DNA of 43,572 nucleotides from Candidatus Omnitrophota bacterium (lineage in GTDB: Bacteria > Omnitrophota > Omnitrophia > Omnitrophales > Aquincolibacteriaceae), in assembly GCA_023247035.1 (NCBI GenBank), contig JAHFHG010000014.1:1-43572 (forward strand), given 5' to 3'. The notes below the pieces were generated by a model. The model saw only the letters and a list, made by a program, of their open reading frames with translations. It was not told where the DNA came from and did no database searches. Position numbers and translations under genes: made by a program. Positions 7,202 to 27,055 of this stretch are shown piece by piece (position 1 is the stretch's first letter; each line of letters opens with the position of its first letter).

Positions 7202-7449
7202 AGGCTTTTTAAAATTTATCTTTTTGGAGCGGGACATTTTTCTGTATTTTATTTTTCCTGTCAATCTTAAAGACGTTACAGCCTGCGCCGTTCGCCTAAC
7301 CGGCAATCACGGGCTAAGTTACGAGCATAAATCTACATTACAATACATCATTAGCCCATAAGGGTAAACAGCTTTTTGCGGAGATCGGGGCGCTTTTTGC
7401 GTCCGCAGGGTAACGCCTGGAAGGGGAATTGCTTTACCGCGGATTTAAA

Positions 7450-7818
7450 TCAAGTTTTCTCTTTGGCGTCTAAATGGGAAGCGATTTTCTGGAGCAGTTC
7501 TGCGGCGTCGAAAGGTTTTAAAATATAATCCGTAATCCCTTCAGCCTCGAACAGGTCTTTCATATTCACATAAGCCGTCAGCACGATAATAGGAATGCGC
7601 TTAATTTCATCAAGCCGCTTGAACCTTCTCAAGAATGTGAAACCGTCCACTTGAGGCATTTTGATATCCAATAAAATCAGATCCGGTTTTTCGCTGGGTA
7701 TCTTTTGCAGGCCAGTTTCCCCGTCCGAGGCAAGGATGACTTCATAATGAGCCTGCAGCCGGGTGCGGATAAGATTCAAAATTTCCGCGTCGTCATCAAT
7801 CACCAATACTTTTTTCAT
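7450..7818 (-). CDS. CheY-like response regulator receiver protein
   Basis: KKVLVIDDDAEIL...PDLILLDIKMPQVDGFTFLR...IPIIVLTAY...DYILKPFDAAELL. Confidence 0.93.
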   Translation of the reverse strand: MKKVLVIDDDAEILNLIRTRLQAHYEVILASDGETGLQKIPSEKPDLILLDIKMPQVDGFTFLRRFKRLDEIKRIPIIVLTAYVNMKDLFEAEGITDYILKPFDAAELLQKIASHLDAKEKT

Positions 7819-8009
7819 AATGTTTCAGGCCGCTTTTTCTGAAATGTAACGGCAGTTTGAAACCCGCCCGCGCACGGGGCAAGCACGCAATGTGTCTCTT
7901 CGCTTATCTTAAGATGAACGATGAGAAAATCGGGCTAATAAGATTCCAATATAATTTCGACATTTCCGGACAGTTCTAGATGCCTTTCTTAGGTTTGAAA
8001 AAATTCGCC

Positions 8010-8906
8010 CTACTCTGTGGTTTTCCAGCGGTTGTGCATCCAGCCCCACTGGCCCGGATAACGGCGGATCATCTCTTCACAGTTTTTCATCCACTGCTGC
8101 GTGGATTCCAAGATTGCCGCCTCGCGCGTGGTTTGGATTGCCGGCCTGATAATCTCACCGATCAGGAATTGATACCGGCCCTTGGGGCGGCGGATCACAA
8201 AACACGTTATGATCGGCGCTCCGGTCCGCAGAGACAACCGGACCGGCGCAATGGACGTGTGCGCGGATTTGCCGAAAAAATTCACGAAAACCCCTCTTAA
8301 GTTGGAAATATCCTGGTCCGGCAGCAGGCCGATCACTTCTCCCCGCCGGAGCAATTGAATAATCTCGCGGGGAGATTCGCTGCGGTAAATGGTTTCAAGC
8401 TGGACAGCCCGTCGAAGGTTCTCAATCCACTTATTGTAAGGTTCGTAGCGGACCCGGCGCGCCACCGCTTTTCCCGGAACTCCCTTTAATTTCAAAGCAG
8501 CGGCTAAAAGCTCCCAATTCCCCAGATGAGAGGTAATGAGAATAATCCCCTTGCCTTCCGCCAATAGTTTTCGGAAAGTTTCCAGCGCATCTCCCATTTC
8601 CACCCATTGGTCGAGCTTTTTGGGATCCATCTTTTGGAATAATAAAACATCCGCGTAAGCCTGGGCGAGATTTTCAAAGACTTCGCGGGCGATCTTGCGG
8701 ATTTCGGCCTCGGATTTTGTTCTTCCGAAAGCAAACCTCAAATTTCTGAGCGCGGCTTCGCGATGCCTGCTTACCAAAGAGTAGGCAGCCCGGCCGAGAC
8801 CTCGGGCGATGAAAAGCAAAACAGGACGCGGTAACGCGGCTAAAAACGCCGCGGTCAGGCGCGCCATCAAATAAATAAAAAATCGGTAGGGCTTGTTTTT
8901 TGCCAT
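8010..8906 (-). CDS. Lysophospholipid/lipid A acyltransferase family (LpxL/HtrB-like)
   Basis: ITSHLGNWELLAAAL (HX4D/E-like acyltransferase motif) and C-terminal RRYPGQWGWMHNRWKT typical of LpxL-family proteins. Confidence 0.85.
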   Translation of the reverse strand: MAKNKPYRFFIYLMARLTAAFLAALPRPVLLFIARGLGRAAYSLVSRHREAALRNLRFAFGRTKSEAEIRKIAREVFENLAQAYADVLLFQKMDPKKLDQWVEMGDALETFRKLLAEGKGIILITSHLGNWELLAAALKLKGVPGKAVARRVRYEPYNKWIENLRRAVQLETIYRSESPREIIQLLRRGEVIGLLPDQDISNLRGVFVNFFGKSAHTSIAPVRLSLRTGAPIITCFVIRRPKGRYQFLIGEIIRPAIQTTREAAILESTQQWMKNCEEMIRRYPGQWGWMHNRWKTTE

Positions 8907-8943
8907 TCCGTGCAACGGACTTTTTTCAAAGGTTCCGTTGAAA

Positions 8944-10017
8944 TTAAATCGAATAGTCCTCTGTAAACACTTTGACCTCTTTAGGAATCGCAAACACGGC
9001 CGCGTCCTTCTTAAGCCCTAAATATTGATAACGCTCGTGAGAAATTTCAACTTGCACGAGGGCATCCCACTCGGTGGTCAGTTCGACTCTCACCAGAGGC
9101 CCGGCTGCGTTAATGGATTTGACTTTAGCCCGGAAATAATTCCCGTTGGCCGGGGCGCTGTATTCAATATCCAGAAGATGGGGCCGGATGTAGACCGTTG
9201 CATTCCGCGCCTCTTGCTTGCCCTCGGTTTTGCCGCTATCCGCCGGAGCGTTTCCGAAAAGTATTTTTCCTCCTTCAAGGCGGCAGTGAAACAGATTGAC
9301 GCTGCCCAAGAAATGAGACACAAAGGGGCTGGCTGGATGATGGTACACTTCATCGGGAGTGCCGATCTGCTCAATCTTTCCTTCGTTCATCACGACGATC
9401 CGGTCGGCCACTTCGAGGGCCTCTTCCTGATCGTGCGTGACAAAGACGCTGGTCATGTGAAGCTTATCGTGAAGCTCGCGGATCCATTGGCGCAGCTCCT
9501 TGCGGACTTTCGCATCCAAAGATCCGAACGGCTCGTCGAGGAGGAGCATTTTCGGCTCGATCGCCAGGGCGCGCGCCAAGGCAACGCGCTGGCGCTGTCC
9601 TCCCGAAAGCTGGGAAGGATACCTTAACGCCATTCCTTCAAGGCGCACGAGTTTCAATAATTCGAACACTTTTAATTTAATTGCTTCCTGGGAAGGCCTC
9701 ACGCGGCGCGGCCGCACGTTAAGCCCAAAGGCCACATTGTCAAAAACGGTCATGTGGCGGAACAAGGCATAATGCTGAAAAACAAATCCGACCTGACGCT
9801 CCTTTACTTTTCTCGACGAGACATCCAGGCCGTCAAAAAGGACCGTCCCGCTGTCCGGGATTTCCAGGCCCGCGATAATCCTCAAGAGGGTTGTCTTGCC
9901 CGAGCCTGAAGGCCCGAGCAGGGCGACGAGTTCGCCCGGAGCGATTCGGAAGTTCACGCCGTTAAGCGCCGTAAAGCTGCCGAACGTTTTGACAATGCGC
10001 TGGACTTCGATACTCAT
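8944..10017 (-). CDS. cysA: Sulfate/thiosulfate ABC transporter ATP-binding protein
   Basis: Walker [10 protein letters not shown], signature [15 protein letters not shown], Walker [17 protein letters not shown]-terminal TOBE-like region; next to two CysT/CysW-type permeases. Confidence 0.92.
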
Positions 10018-21606: not shown

Positions 21607-22046
21607 TATAGTATCTGCCCTCATTAAGGAGATTTTTTTCATGTTGATGTATTTTTGTGGATAGGGGCGAAGCGGTTTCGAGGAAGAATGGCCATACCCT
21701 TGGACACGAAACTCTGGAAGCGATGCGAAGGACGGCTGTTCGGATGCAACAGCAAGGGCATGGTGTCGAGGATATCGCCTCGTGGATGCGGCTGCATCGT
21801 TCTTCGGTTTTTCGTTGGGTCGAGACGTACGGTCGCAAAGGGATCGAAGCCTTGATATCCAGGAAAGCGTCCGGAGCGCCGGGAGTGGGAGCAAGACCCT
21901 CAAAAAATTCGTCAAGGGCAAAAAGGGATGCCGCCCCAAATTCAACGCTCAAAAGCGCTCAGAGCCTTACGCGCTCCGCAAAAAAAACCTGAAAAAATAA
22001 AATCTTTCTTCGAAATAGAGTCCCCTTAATGAGGTCGGGCGCTATA
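21607..22046. mobile_element. IS630-like insertion sequence remnant/non-autonomous element with terminal inverted repeats
   Basis: Left TATAGTATCTGCCCTCATTAAGGAG (21607-21631) vs reverse complement of right end TATAGCGCCCGACCTCATTAAGGGG (22022-22046), 19/25 identical including CCTCATTAAGG; encloses a truncated HTH transposase N-terminus. Confidence 0.7.
21657..21992 (+). pseudogene. Truncated IS630-type transposase (N-terminal HTH only)
   Basis: GHETLEAMRRTAVRMQQQGHGVEDIASWMRLHRSSVFRWVETYGRKGIEALISRKASGAPG is HTH_29-like; sequence after this loses homology and no DDE catalytic domain follows before the right TIR. Confidence 0.7.
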
Positions 22047-22106
22047 CAAAACTTTTTTAAAAATTTTCTTGGCCTAAATCGCAAAGGCGATTATCATAAC
22101 CGCTCG

Positions 22107-23261
22107 ATGAGAAAAAAAATTCAAGGACGCAATCCGGCGGCGGACGATAAAAACCGCCGCAAGAGCGGCGAATACGGCGACGGTTTCCGCCACGGCTTCA
22201 AACCGCTTGAATCGCTCGACTTATCCCAAATCCATTCGATTGACGATCTCGTGCGCGGGATGTCGAAGACCTCTTTCGGCGGCCGCTCGGTCGGCGAGGC
22301 GGCGGATATCCTGGAAGCGATGGCCCTCGATCCCGAATGTTTCGTGATCCTCACTTTATCCGGCGCAATGACGGTCGCCAAACTGGGGCTCGTCGTCTGC
22401 GATATGATTGAGCGCGGAATGGTCCATGCCGTCATCAGTACGGGCGCGCTGATGGCGCACGGATTCGTCGAGGCTGCGGGCATGAAGCATTTCAAATATG
22501 AAGAAGGCATGGACGATCAGGCGCTCTACAAAGCCGGATACGACCGCATTTACGATACCCTCGAGCTGGAAAAAAATCTGGATGACGCGGAAGTGATTGT
22601 GACGCGCGTGCTGGACCGTATTGAGCGGAACACTGTCCTTTCAAGCCGCCTGGTGAATGAAAAACTCGGCGAATACCTTTCGAAAAACGTGAAAGGCCGC
22701 GGCGTGCTGCGAAGCGCTTATGAAAAAAAAGCACCGGTCTACGTGCCCGCCTTTACGGATTCGGAATTGGGGCTGGACGTTGGAGTTTACAACCGGCACG
22801 CCGTTTCGCAGAATGAAAAACCTTTTGCTTATAATCCCTTTCTCGATCTCGAACATTACACGGAAACCGTAAAGGCCCAGAAGAAATTAGGGATCTTCAC
22901 CATTGGCGGCGGGGTCCCGCGAAACTGGGCGCAGCAAGTCGGCCCTTACCTGGATATCATTGACCAGCGCCTCGGATTTGGCGGCGCCTTTAAACGTTTT
23001 CACTACGCGGTCAGGATCTGCCCCGAGCCCGTGCACTGGGGAGGCCTGTCCGGCTGCACTTACTCCGAAGGCGTTTCCTGGGGCAAGTTTGTTCCGAAAG
23101 AAGAAGGCGGAAGATGGTCTGAAGTGATGGCCGACGCCACCATTGCCTGGCCTTTAATCGTCAAAGCCGTCCTTGAACGGCTGGAAAATAAAAAGATCAA
23201 CAAGAAAATCCTTGAAGCGCCTTCCTCTCGCCCGACCCGGCGCAAAGCCGCTCTCACCTAA
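22107..23261 (+). CDS. Deoxyhypusine synthase-like protein
   Basis: SVGEAADILEAM...CFVILTLSGAMTVAKLGLVVCDMIERGMVHAVISTGALMAHGFVEAAG...FTIGGGVPRNW...EGVSWGKF (catalytic-Lys region conserved). Confidence 0.88.
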   Translation: MRKKIQGRNPAADDKNRRKSGEYGDGFRHGFKPLESLDLSQIHSIDDLVRGMSKTSFGGRSVGEAADILEAMALDPECFVILTLSGAMTVAKLGLVVCDMIERGMVHAVISTGALMAHGFVEAAGMKHFKYEEGMDDQALYKAGYDRIYDTLELEKNLDDAEVIVTRVLDRIERNTVLSSRLVNEKLGEYLSKNVKGRGVLRSAYEKKAPVYVPAFTDSELGLDVGVYNRHAVSQNEKPFAYNPFLDLEHYTETVKAQKKLGIFTIGGGVPRNWAQQVGPYLDIIDQRLGFGGAFKRFHYAVRICPEPVHWGGLSGCTYSEGVSWGKFVPKEEGGRWSEVMADATIAWPLIVKAVLERLENKKINKKILEAPSSRPTRRKAALT

Positions 23262-23345: not shown

Positions 23346-23624
23346 TTAGCGGGACAGCATCAAATCGTGGCCGATGATGAGGGTAAAAATAAGGCTGAAG
23401 GCAAGAGGGGCCAGCGCGACGAGGGTAAGGAGAATCTTTTCGAATTTCAAATGCATATAAAACATCGCCACCAAAGAGGCCTTTACGATGGCAAGCCCGA
23501 CCAGCATCAGCGCGATAGGAAGCCTGGCCAGCGGCAGATTGGCGGTTGCGAGTTCGAGGATCGTGAGGACAAAAAGGCCTAAGAAAATTGCGCCGTAACG
23601 GCGGGAATGGCTTTCTTCGCTCAT
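23346..23624 (-). CDS. Cytochrome c oxidase subunit IV (prokaryotic type)
   Basis: MSEESHSRRYGAIFLGLFVLTILELATANLPLARLPIALMLVGLAIVKASLVAMFYMHLKFE; ATGA overlap with subunit III. Confidence 0.85.
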   Translation of the reverse strand: MSEESHSRRYGAIFLGLFVLTILELATANLPLARLPIALMLVGLAIVKASLVAMFYMHLKFEKILLTLVALAPLAFSLIFTLIIGHDLMLSR

Positions 23625-24211
23625 ATCAGATACACAATCGTAAAAAGGATGATCCAAACCAAATCCACAAAGTGCCAGTAAAGGCCCGCAATTTCAATGC
23701 CCTTGTGTTCCTCTTTCGTGTAAGCCCCGCGCATCGACCGCAAAAAAACAAAAATGAGGCAGATCACGCCGACTAAGACGTGCATTCCGTGGAAACCCGT
23801 GAGCGTGAAAAAACAGGCGCCGAAAATGCTCGAGGAAGGCGTGAAGTGTTTTTCATGAATGAGTTCGTGATATTCGTGGGCCTGAATGCTTAAAAAAAGC
23901 GCGCCGAGAAGCACGGTGAGAAAAAGCCCTACCTGCATTCCTTCCCGGTCTCCCTGCTGGGCAGAGGCAAGCCCTTTGACGAGAGTAGCGCTGGAGCAGA
24001 TTAAAATAAACGTGTTCAAAGCCGTGAGAGGAATATTGAGAACGGCGCTCGGGACCGGCCACTCGGGCGTCACCTGCCGGATCACAATATAGGCCCCGAT
24101 AAGCCCCGTAAAAAACATCACTTCCGAGGCAAGGAAAATCCACATCCCGAATTTCCGGTTCTCGATGCCCAGGTTTTCGTAAGAAGAGGAAGAAGCAGCG
24201 GCGTGGTTCAT
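23621..24211 (-). CDS. Cytochrome c oxidase subunit III
   Basis: KFGMWIFLASEVMFFTGLIGAYIVIR...FFTLTGFHGMHVLVGVICLIFV...EIAGLYWHFVDLVWIILFTIVYLI. Confidence 0.93.
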   Translation of the reverse strand: MNHAAASSSSYENLGIENRKFGMWIFLASEVMFFTGLIGAYIVIRQVTPEWPVPSAVLNIPLTALNTFILICSSATLVKGLASAQQGDREGMQVGLFLTVLLGALFLSIQAHEYHELIHEKHFTPSSSIFGACFFTLTGFHGMHVLVGVICLIFVFLRSMRGAYTKEEHKGIEIAGLYWHFVDLVWIILFTIVYLI

Positions 24212-24327
24212 ATCAATTTTGTATCTTACCGGTCCTTTTTTAAAAGTCAAATTCGTCTTCAAAGCATGAAGGATAAATTTGATCCGCCAAAGTAATTGAG
24301 TGGCGGATCATCGCCGAAGCTTATTCT

Positions 24328-26079
24328 TTACGAGGCGAGAGAGACGTTGGGACTGCGCTTGATCTCACAACTGACGAGGAGTCCGTCCGCCGCCCAGCGC
24401 GAAAACCAGGCGGCAACCGGCAATTCCTCCTCGCCGGATACATCCGCCAAATCCTCGCACACCTCGCCCAAGGTCCGGCCCTGGAGAAGCCCTTCGAGCA
24501 GCTTGTGCTGGGCGGGATTTAAAAGCTCGCACCGGACCTGCGCATCCCGCCTTCCGATCAGAAGATGCTGAGGCGTTTTCTGAAAAACCCATTGGCCTTC
24601 ATGGCTTCCGGGATCCTGTTTCTTTTTCCAAATATCCAGAACAGGCCAGGGAGAGAAAAAAATCGCGGACGAAGGCTGGAAGACCACTTTGGCGTATTCC
24701 CAGTCTTCAAGAGGGATATCCGCTAATTGGGCAGGAACGAAAGGCGGCTTGTCAAAAGCGTGAAAGGCCTCGGCCATCCTCCATTCCAGTTCTGCCAAAT
24801 CCGCCAGAAAAGGGACATCGTCCAGGCCGGGAGCGGTCCGAATGAATTCCGGAAAATGGATCCCGATCCGGCTCAGATTATAATGATGGGAAGGATAAGC
24901 GGCGGCGTAAGCCTCGCCTAACGCGTTAAAACGCTCCGGCCCCAAAATAAATTGCGTGGCCTCGTACACATCGGCCAGGCCTTCCTGAACGCGCGCGACA
25001 TAGCCCCCTGCGTAAACCGACATCCGCTCACGGCCGGCGACTCCCCCTTGCGGATTCAGCAGATCACTTTCTTCGCGAGCTTCGCGAGGGCCGGCCTTGG
25101 AATCGGATAAGGGCCTTACGTAAGCCTTCATTCGATTGAGGATTTCGACCAAGGATTGAGGAGAAGCGTCACGCGGCGGATTCAAACTTTCCCGCGCGCT
25201 CGATGCCGCAACCTCGGGCGGATTCCAATTTTCGAACCGGCTGTAAAAAAATTTCGCGCGCGTGCACTCCTCTTCCAGTTTAGAAAATTCCGGAATGTTT
25301 TCATCCCACTCGACCAGCGTGGGAATCTGCCCCCATTTTTTCAAGGCCTCGCGGTAAAGCTCCCAGACAGGATCAATGACAGGCGCGCTGTGCGTATCGA
25401 AAAGAAAAGATCCCATATCCGTGTGCCCCGCCAGATGAAACTGTCCGACCTTTCCGGCGGGAATGTCCGCCAGATAAACAAGGGGATCAAACCGGTGGTT
25501 GGCCGCATTGACGAAAATATTATTGAGGTCCAGGAGGATGCTGCAGCCGGATCTTTTGGCGATCTCGGAAAGGAATTCCCATTCGGGCATTGCAGAATGC
25601 GCATAAGTCACGTAGGTCGATACATTCTCAATCAAAATTTGCCGGCCCAGAAACTCCTGGACTTGCTGAACGCGCGAAACGACGTGCGCAATCGCTTCTT
25701 CGGTAAAAGGAAGGGGAAGCAAATCGTGGAGATTTTCACCTCCGATGCCGGACCAGCAAAGGTGGTCGGAGACAATCACAGGATCGATCCGGTCGGCCAG
25801 GGCTTTTAAGCGTTTAAGGTAAATTAAATTGAGGGGATCTGTGGATCCTACGGAGAGAGAAACGCCGTGAAGCGCTACGGGGTAGCGGCTGCGGACTTTT
25901 TCCAAAATCTGAATCGGGCGGCCGCCGGTATCCATATAATTCTCACTGATGGCCTCAAACCAGTCCACTTTCGGCCATTGCTCAAGAATATAGGAATAGT
26001 GCTTGGTCCGAAGTCCGACCCCGCAACCCAATTTCGGCTGCCTGGCTTTGCCCGCTGCCGCTGCCCCGTTGACGCTCAT
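24328..26079 (-). CDS. Fused MNIO (DUF692, BufB/HvfB-like) - DUF2063 (BufC/HvfC-like) protein
   Basis: N-terminal DUF692: LGCGVGLRTKHYSYILEQWPKVDWFEAISENYM...LHGVSLSVGSTDPLN...VSDHLCWSG...LIENVSTYV...LLDLNNIFVNAANH...FHLAGHTDMG...VEWDENIP; C-terminal DUF2063: RMSVYAGGYVARVQEGLADVYEATQFILGPERFNALGEAYAAAYPSHHYNLSRIGIHFPEFI. One continuous 583-aa frame. Confidence 0.88.
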   Translation of the reverse strand: MSVNGAAAAGKARQPKLGCGVGLRTKHYSYILEQWPKVDWFEAISENYMDTGGRPIQILEKVRSRYPVALHGVSLSVGSTDPLNLIYLKRLKALADRIDPVIVSDHLCWSGIGGENLHDLLPLPFTEEAIAHVVSRVQQVQEFLGRQILIENVSTYVTYAHSAMPEWEFLSEIAKRSGCSILLDLNNIFVNAANHRFDPLVYLADIPAGKVGQFHLAGHTDMGSFLFDTHSAPVIDPVWELYREALKKWGQIPTLVEWDENIPEFSKLEEECTRAKFFYSRFENWNPPEVAASSARESLNPPRDASPQSLVEILNRMKAYVRPLSDSKAGPREAREESDLLNPQGGVAGRERMSVYAGGYVARVQEGLADVYEATQFILGPERFNALGEAYAAAYPSHHYNLSRIGIHFPEFIRTAPGLDDVPFLADLAELEWRMAEAFHAFDKPPFVPAQLADIPLEDWEYAKVVFQPSSAIFFSPWPVLDIWKKKQDPGSHEGQWVFQKTPQHLLIGRRDAQVRCELLNPAQHKLLEGLLQGRTLGEVCEDLADVSGEEELPVAAWFSRWAADGLLVSCEIKRSPNVSLAS

Positions 26080-26096
26080 TATATTACCTGAATAAA

Positions 26097-26369
26097 TCAG
26101 ACGGCAGGAGCAGGAACAACCTTACCGCCTGCGGCCTCGCACTCTTTCGCTGAGGCAGACTTCATCCAGCCCTCTCCTTTGCAGGCATTCTTTCCTGCGC
26201 AGGCATTGCCTTTTCCGCCGCATTCACCTTTTCCTTTGCAGGCATTGATGCCGCTGCAGTTCACATCGGCATAAACAGTATTCGCTCCCGTCAACGCGCC
26301 GGTCAAGGCAAGCAATCCTGCAACCGAGGCAGCCAGCAGCATTTTCTTTTTTGTATTCTTTCTTTCCAT
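26097..26369 (-). CDS. Bufferin-like (BufA2/HvfA-type) Cys-rich RiPP precursor with signal peptide
   Basis: MERKNTKKKMLLAASVAGLLALTGALTGANTVYA | DVNCSGINACKGKGECGGKGNACAGKNACKGEGWMKSASAKECEAAGGKV; six Cys at 38,44,50,57,63,77; AAAGGAGAA RBS; 17 nt upstream of the MNIO gene. Confidence 0.82.
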   Translation of the reverse strand: MERKNTKKKMLLAASVAGLLALTGALTGANTVYADVNCSGINACKGKGECGGKGNACAGKNACKGEGWMKSASAKECEAAGGKVVPAPAV

Positions 26370-26470: not shown

Positions 26471-27055
26471 TCATTCCTTAAGCATCCCCTCGATCTCCAG
26501 ATTTATTTCAACCTCATCGCCGACCAGCGCTCCGCCGGTTTCCAAGGCTTGGTTCCAGGTCAAGCCGAAATCCTTCCGGTTAATCTTCGTCGCCGCGCTA
26601 AATCCGGCCTGGACATTTCCCCAAGGATCCTTGCCGGCGCCGTGGATCTGCAAATCGAATACCACAGGCTTTTCCACGCCGTGAATGGAAAGAAGGCCGT
26701 GAAGTTTGCCTCCCTCCTCGGTAGGGTTTTCTATCTTAGTGCTTTTAAAAGTCAAAGTGGAAAATTTTTCAGCGTCAAAAAAATCGGCCGAGCGGAGATG
26801 TTTGTCGCGCTCTTTGGCATTCGTATTGATGCTTGCCGTCTGGACCGTTGCCGTCACCTTCCACCGCTCCGGCTTTCCGGGTTCATATTCGATCGCGGCT
26901 TCAAATTCCCCGAAATTTCCCCGAACGTAGGAAAAAAGATGCCGGATTTTAAATCCGACACTCGAGTGATCTTTGTCGACGGTATAAGCCGCTCCGTAAG
27001 CGAAACTGTTGGAAAATAAAATTCCCAGCATGAGAATAAAAACCAGCTTTTTCAC
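26471..27055 (-). CDS. YceI-family periplasmic protein
   Basis: Signal peptide; YTVDKDHSSVGFKIRHLFSYVRGNFGEFEAAIEY...SINTNAKERDKHLRSADFFDAEKFSTLTFKS...GLSIHGVEKPVVFDL. Confidence 0.93.
   Translation of the reverse strand: MKKLVFILMLGILFSNSFAYGAAYTVDKDHSSVGFKIRHLFSYVRGNFGEFEAAIEYEPGKPERWKVTATVQTASINTNAKERDKHLRSADFFDAEKFSTLTFKSTKIENPTEEGGKLHGLLSIHGVEKPVVFDLQIHGAGKDPWGNVQAGFSAATKINRKDFGLTWNQALETGGALVGDEVEINLEIEGMLKE

Follow-up and report, generated by a model that had tools for sequence, protein, structure and literature searches.

The locus lies on the minus strand of a window of 43,572 nucleotides, that is, the whole stretch of DNA analysed here, from a Candidatus Omnitrophota bacterium. Read along this strand, yceI is followed after 101 nt by bufA2, after a further 17 nt by bufBC, and then by cox3 and cox4:

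26471..27055, minus strand: yceI (PF04264, 172.9 bits; cut-off 23.7)
26097..26369, minus strand: bufA2, BufA2-type bufferin precursor of 90 aa with six Cys (NF050166, 62.4 bits)
24328..26079, minus strand: bufBC, fused maturase of 583 aa, a single open frame
25252..26025, minus strand: BufB/MNIO domain of bufBC, residues 19-276 (PF05114, 360.7 bits; NF050167, 380.1 bits)
25150..25251, minus strand: variable linker of bufBC, approximately residues 277-310 (unaligned and of varying length, with low pLDDT within)
24331..25149, minus strand: BufC/PME-type 1 half of bufBC, DUF2063 and predicted RRE-like C-terminal domain (PF09836; fold matches)
24280..24309, minus strand: perfect 10-bp hairpin, TGATCCGCCA / TGGCGGATCA, with a loop of 10-11 nt, just 3' of the bufBC stop
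23621..24262, minus strand: cox3, caa3/aa3 oxidase subunit III (PF00510, 127 bits)
23346..23657, minus strand: cox4, caa3 oxidase subunit IV (PF03626, 47 bits; TIGR02229, 42.6 bits; cut-off 37.25)

A bufferin precursor and its cassette

A first-pass annotation had described a 90-aa precursor with six cysteines located 17 nt before a 583-aa open reading frame, and all coordinates were confirmed together with the spacing C-x5-C-x5-C-x6-C-x5-C-x13-C (Cys38, 44, 50, 57, 63, and 77). The NCBIfam model NF050166 matches this precursor with a slim margin over its cut-off of 60 bits and also matches 11 of the 11 aligned precursor homologues. By inspection, the N-terminus is of the Sec type (approximately residues 1-34) with a positive start, a hydrophobic stretch, and a VYA/D end, and Ala34 is invariant in the alignment of homologues. 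The bufA2 start codon (ATG) is preceded by an AGGAG ribosome-binding site, and the gene stands directly ahead of the MNIO gene, as is characteristic of BufA2 cassettes. With both the BufA2 and the BufB model scores above the NCBIfam cut-offs, the earlier assignment as a bufferin-type RiPP cassette is borne out. The idea that the core sequence is unusual and carries an extra cysteine had to be abandoned, however, since six cysteines spaced 5-5-6-5-12/13 are the ordinary BufA2 arrangement in Omnitrophota as well as in other phyla.

The BufA2-type peptide and the bufferin family are already known, and the locus resembles the Buf2 clusters described by Antoine et al. 2025 (PMC12452194) in its six-Cys precursor with a Sec signal, the gene order A-B-C, the MNIO, and the DUF2063-RRE partner. 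Unlike in these clusters, B and C form one protein here, yceI belongs to the neighbourhood, and no DoxX is adjacent in the window. The separate bufC gene that is usual for BufA2 clusters, though no stated requirement of the family, is thus absent, BufC being part of the BufB chain. A scan of nine genes of the window turned up neither a DoxX nor a copper regulator or copper pump. Immediately downstream of bufBC, the hairpin region (24225-24330, minus strand) folds at -23.8 kcal/mol (z -1.9); it has no T-run and was not called as a terminator, and the hairpin may be an RNA stabiliser or a weak terminator between bufBC and cox3.

The fused maturase as a predicted single-chain enzyme

The bufBC frame has no internal stop and joins DUF692 (MNIO) to DUF2063, just as had been claimed from the sequence: both Pfam models score far above their cut-offs, PF05114 with a cut-off of 25 (E 5e-108) and PF09836 at residues 341-413 with 55 bits (cut-off 27.2, E 1e-14). 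DUF2063 was likewise matched at E 0.01 or better in 17 of 17 fused members scanned. NF050167 (cut-off 310) places the MNIO domain in the BufB branch. The HvfB model NF003818 (265.3 bits, cut-off 360) and the HvfC model NF050145 (44.7 bits, cut-off 142) both score below their cut-offs, so that the label "Hvf-like" is not supported and membership in the HvfB/HvfC (oxazolin) group was rejected.

A structural model of whole BufBC (mean pLDDT 83, pTM 0.81, with residues 293-301 at pLDDT < 50) most closely matches two MNIO entries of the PDB, 3BWW (TM 0.88 by target length) and TglH. A PDB sequence search with the C-terminal half gave no useful match, but the fold search did: when the last 280 residues were modelled separately (pLDDT 87), the result matched only TglI (8hci, 8hi7) and NGO1945 (3DEE; TM 0.74 by target length) at E < 0.001. 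Because these are its only significant PDB fold matches, the C-terminal half is, as modelled, a complete PME-type 1 partner composed of DUF2063 and an RRE-like fold; on its Pfam model, the RRE scores only 18.7 bits (cut-off 27). In the 3BWW alignment, N187, D228, and H230 of BufBC were identified by eye as counterparts of HvfB residues N175, D242, and H244, with N187 placed through the conserved D-x-x-N motif, and all three are invariant across 17 fused proteins. These HvfB residues are essential in HvfBC (PMC13419390). The RRE-like C-terminal domain, the conserved upstream yceI, and the downstream cox3-cox4 genes had not featured in the first-pass annotation.

We consider it likely that yceI-bufA2-bufBC is a BufA2-type bufferin operon with a one-chain maturase that produces a Sec-exported, copper-buffering peptide. 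The BufA2 precursor would be synthesised with its Sec signal peptide, which in bufferins doubles as the leader according to the title of a study cited in PMC13419390. In the cytoplasm, the single BufB-BufC chain would grip it via the RRE-like C-terminal half, and the MNIO half would use O2 at its iron cluster to oxidise core cysteines, most likely into 5-thiooxazoles. PME1-dependent MNIOs broadly convert cysteines to 5-thiooxazoles, and the products bind copper (PMC12668002). Exported by Sec, the modified peptide would buffer copper outside the inner membrane of a bacterium that presumably relies on a copper-containing haem-copper oxidase, and YceI would probably guard the same compartment, for example from lipid peroxyl radicals.

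Regarding the fusion itself, previous work showed that the active Fe(II)/Fe(III) state of HvfBC depends on the partner and that an engineered HvfB-HvfC fusion, built for 1:1 stoichiometry, has a higher activity than the two proteins when co-expressed (PMC13419390). This precedent makes it plausible that the natural fusion enforces 1:1 stoichiometry, as had been suggested for bufBC. We infer by analogy that it acts here like the engineered protein, in that it would hold the partner permanently in place, comparable to HvfBC, where the partner enables the iron cluster to attain the active, mixed-valent state. Both proteins have the MNIO at the N-terminus and the PME1 at the C-terminus and make a second protein unnecessary, but BufBC is natural, has a variable linker, and is paired with a BufA2 rather than an oxazolin precursor. 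The role of the MNIO partner has recently been widened by way of this artificial fusion from holding the peptide to also setting the iron cluster, and natural fusions are ready single-chain holoenzymes for structural work and spectroscopy.

A DUF692-DUF2063 protein of equal domain order appeared in Pfam in 2009 as one among 216 proteins, and the accessible portion of that paper does not discuss its organism, precursor, or function (PMC2954202). MovX, as it is cited in PMC13419390, is an MNIO that carries its recognition domain on the enzyme chain like BufBC, though in the form of a fused C-terminal RRE and not of a DUF2063-RRE partner. The fused architecture is not discussed in the accessible text of the 2025 landscape study (PMC12452194). 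In the literature that we searched, there appears to be no description of its distribution, of the two lineages that carry it, or of the link to yceI.

Distribution and origins of the fusion

The fused architecture recurs in 17 further Omnitrophota loci from several studies, each with BufA2 upstream, and three of these frames run off the contig end; the aligned fused relatives are 44-58% identical to BufBC. At one locus (L049, 2152-2784), a tandem pair of bufA2 genes lies ahead of a single fused maturase. Across our Omnitrophota phylum sample, every strong BufB locus of family f1 is fused except one (G002, split), as are both loci of family f8 (2/2) and all those of family f20 (5/5), and family f64 has one fused locus (L021) that ends at the contig edge. 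In families f43, f29, and f47, bufB and bufC are separate genes. Because many Omnitrophota keep the split form with a BufA2-type precursor and yceI alongside, the fusion is not needed for function. In a set of 80 named loci drawn from the genome collection, fusions occur exclusively in Omnitrophota, and about 55 loci of other phyla have separate genes. The survey of fused and split forms that had been proposed thus shows a real, lineage-restricted subfamily; of the earlier suggestion that core sequence and fusion might together mark something distinct, the part concerning the fusion stands, and that concerning the core fell with the ordinary cysteine spacing.

The strong BufB-like matches listed for Pseudomonadota (MNIO in 145/399 genomes), Bacteroidota (17/248), Planctomycetota (79/246), and Acidobacteriota (30/129) included no fusion. 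Long frames from Pseudomonadota, Planctomycetota, and Acidobacteriota were dismissed as candidate fusions, given that all those fetched have the MNIO domain at the frame end and merely an upstream extension. In the plasmid collection, the best 25 records all match in two pieces, corresponding to two genes where annotated. Myxococcota have an MNIO in 74 of 122 genomes, and true fusions were present in 14 of 17 fetched loci (L142-L146, L148-L154, L156, and L158), which were picked for long frames and therefore give no rate for the phylum. These cases overturned the notion that the fusion is confined to Omnitrophota. They share the one-frame domain order of BufBC but belong to another MNIO branch, and mostly no BufA2 precursor was found with them; at L146 (1589-1829), a CGGKG-repeat precursor is located just ahead of the fusion.

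Trees of the MNIO domain, inferred by a quick kind of method, place the fused Omnitrophota rows together with the split L051 on one side of a branch (SH-aLRT 91.8). A single clade of the fused Omnitrophota rows alone was not rejected (p-AU 0.82), and a joint clade of Omnitrophota and Myxococcota fusions was rejected marginally (p-AU 0.031). The Myxococcota fusion is probably independent of the Omnitrophota one, and our reading of the trees is that there were at least two fusion events, possibly with one later splitting, which suggests that evolution merged MNIO and partner more than once. In the cassette of L051 (3700-3900), the start of bufC overlaps the end of bufB in a different frame, which could represent a re-split, the ancestral state, or an assembly frameshift.

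How much the fusion matters is a separate question, and there is an appreciable, if less than even, chance that it is selectively neutral, with overlapping or adjacent genes having merged by stop loss or frameshift in a tolerant linker so that one chain simply equals two. In many split relatives (for example, L044 and L048), bufB and bufC overlap or share a frame and are one stop apart, an arrangement that seems to offer an easy route to fusion. A neutral origin would also fit the variable linker, which tolerates a long insert at L034, and the position of the split L051 nested among the fused rows of the tree. On the other hand, the fusion has been retained over several Omnitrophota families (f1, f8, f20, and f64) and has arisen again in Myxococcota, and the activity gain of the engineered HvfBC fusion also speaks for a functional benefit. 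The maturase at L047 (with L034, the same genes as the L003/L009 pair) has its insert within the partner half, with a "CHCEER...KQSK" stretch, and both inserts look like translated dispersed repeats.

Oxidase genes, copper, and yceI

The cox3 gene of the window is the only COX3 of its genome and is located away from COX1, which was found by a family model match on contig C44 (locus L141). Beside this COX1 lie COX2, CtaA, CtaB, an ABC transporter, and an SCO protein, all named from sequence. At the same locus (7282-8871 and 8893-9588, minus strand), the N-terminal extension of the COX2-like protein resembles a neighbouring 231-aa protein by eye, as if a duplicated neighbour domain had been fused to COX2. 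Convergent with cox4 of the window is a bacterial deoxyhypusine synthase-family gene (22029-23261, plus strand; PF01916, 260 bits).

Genes cox3-cox4 follow the buf cassette here and in L128, that is, in 2 of about 17 neighbourhoods, and a functional link between the cassette and the downstream cox3 is uncertain. COX1 is encoded by 23 of 26 BufB-bearing genomes versus 54 of 358 others (Fisher p 7e-15, with kinship not fully corrected) and, within family f1, by 7 of 8 genomes with BufB versus 4 of 19 without (p 0.002). Since both traits need oxygen and kinship is not fully corrected, this co-occurrence is better evidence of an aerobic setting than of copper handling in particular, and it may reflect only aerobic life because the enzyme needs O2.

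The same co-occurrence and the cox3-cox4 genes directly downstream, together with the MerC-bufferin fusions and "gig" operons mentioned in the accessible parts of the literature, would also be compatible with a peptide that serves some purpose other than coping with excess copper, such as supplying the oxidase with copper or handling gold, mercury, or peroxide. We regard this as unlikely, as known bufferins and other thiooxazole peptides bind copper (PMC12452194) and the cox linkage is limited to the two neighbourhoods. Finally, that sequencing or assembly artificially fused two genes in what is a metagenome-assembled genome has a negligible probability and is refuted by independent assemblies from several studies, in which 17 other Omnitrophota loci show the same architecture.

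The product of yceI is a periplasmic YceI-family lipocalin with a signal peptide. Among 25 named Omnitrophota loci, 22 have a yceI directly ahead of bufA2 on the same strand; as for the three exceptions, L039 is truncated where its contig begins, and L046 and L052 have upstream room with no YceI match. Eight loci outside the named Omnitrophota, including five Myxococcota and one Binatota, also have yceI upstream, and no linked yceI was seen in Pseudomonadota (0/23 loci). The yceI gene of the window is the sole YceI gene of its genome; among 14 genomes checked, which were selected for having the cassette, the linked yceI is the only YceI in 10 and the best-scoring one in the other 4.

Based on this gene linkage, we propose that yceI is a member of the cassette. 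Our full-text literature search retrieved no paper joining YceI with MNIO or bufferin, and YceI is absent from the main text of the bufferin landscape paper (PMC12452194); this near-constant neighbour suggests an undescribed component of bufferin biology. The YceI lipocalin BcnA shields Gram-negative envelopes against lipid peroxyl radicals (PMC9113575), which by analogy suggests a joint role of YceI with copper buffering; the BcnA system likewise has a periplasmic YceI-family protein, linked to cytochrome b561 rather than to a bufferin. As a tentative and rather speculative extension, yceI-bufA2-bufBC may form one envelope-protection unit in which a thiooxazole copper peptide and a quinone- or lipid-binding YceI would support the aerobic respiration of Omnitrophota, with the fused maturase as a pre-assembled MNIO holoenzyme that is always able to reach mixed-valent iron and that evolved at least two times. 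At one locus of family f20 (L121, 5245-6272, minus strand), genes that by eye appear DoxX/MauE-like and thioredoxin-fold-like lie upstream of yceI and extend the cassette.
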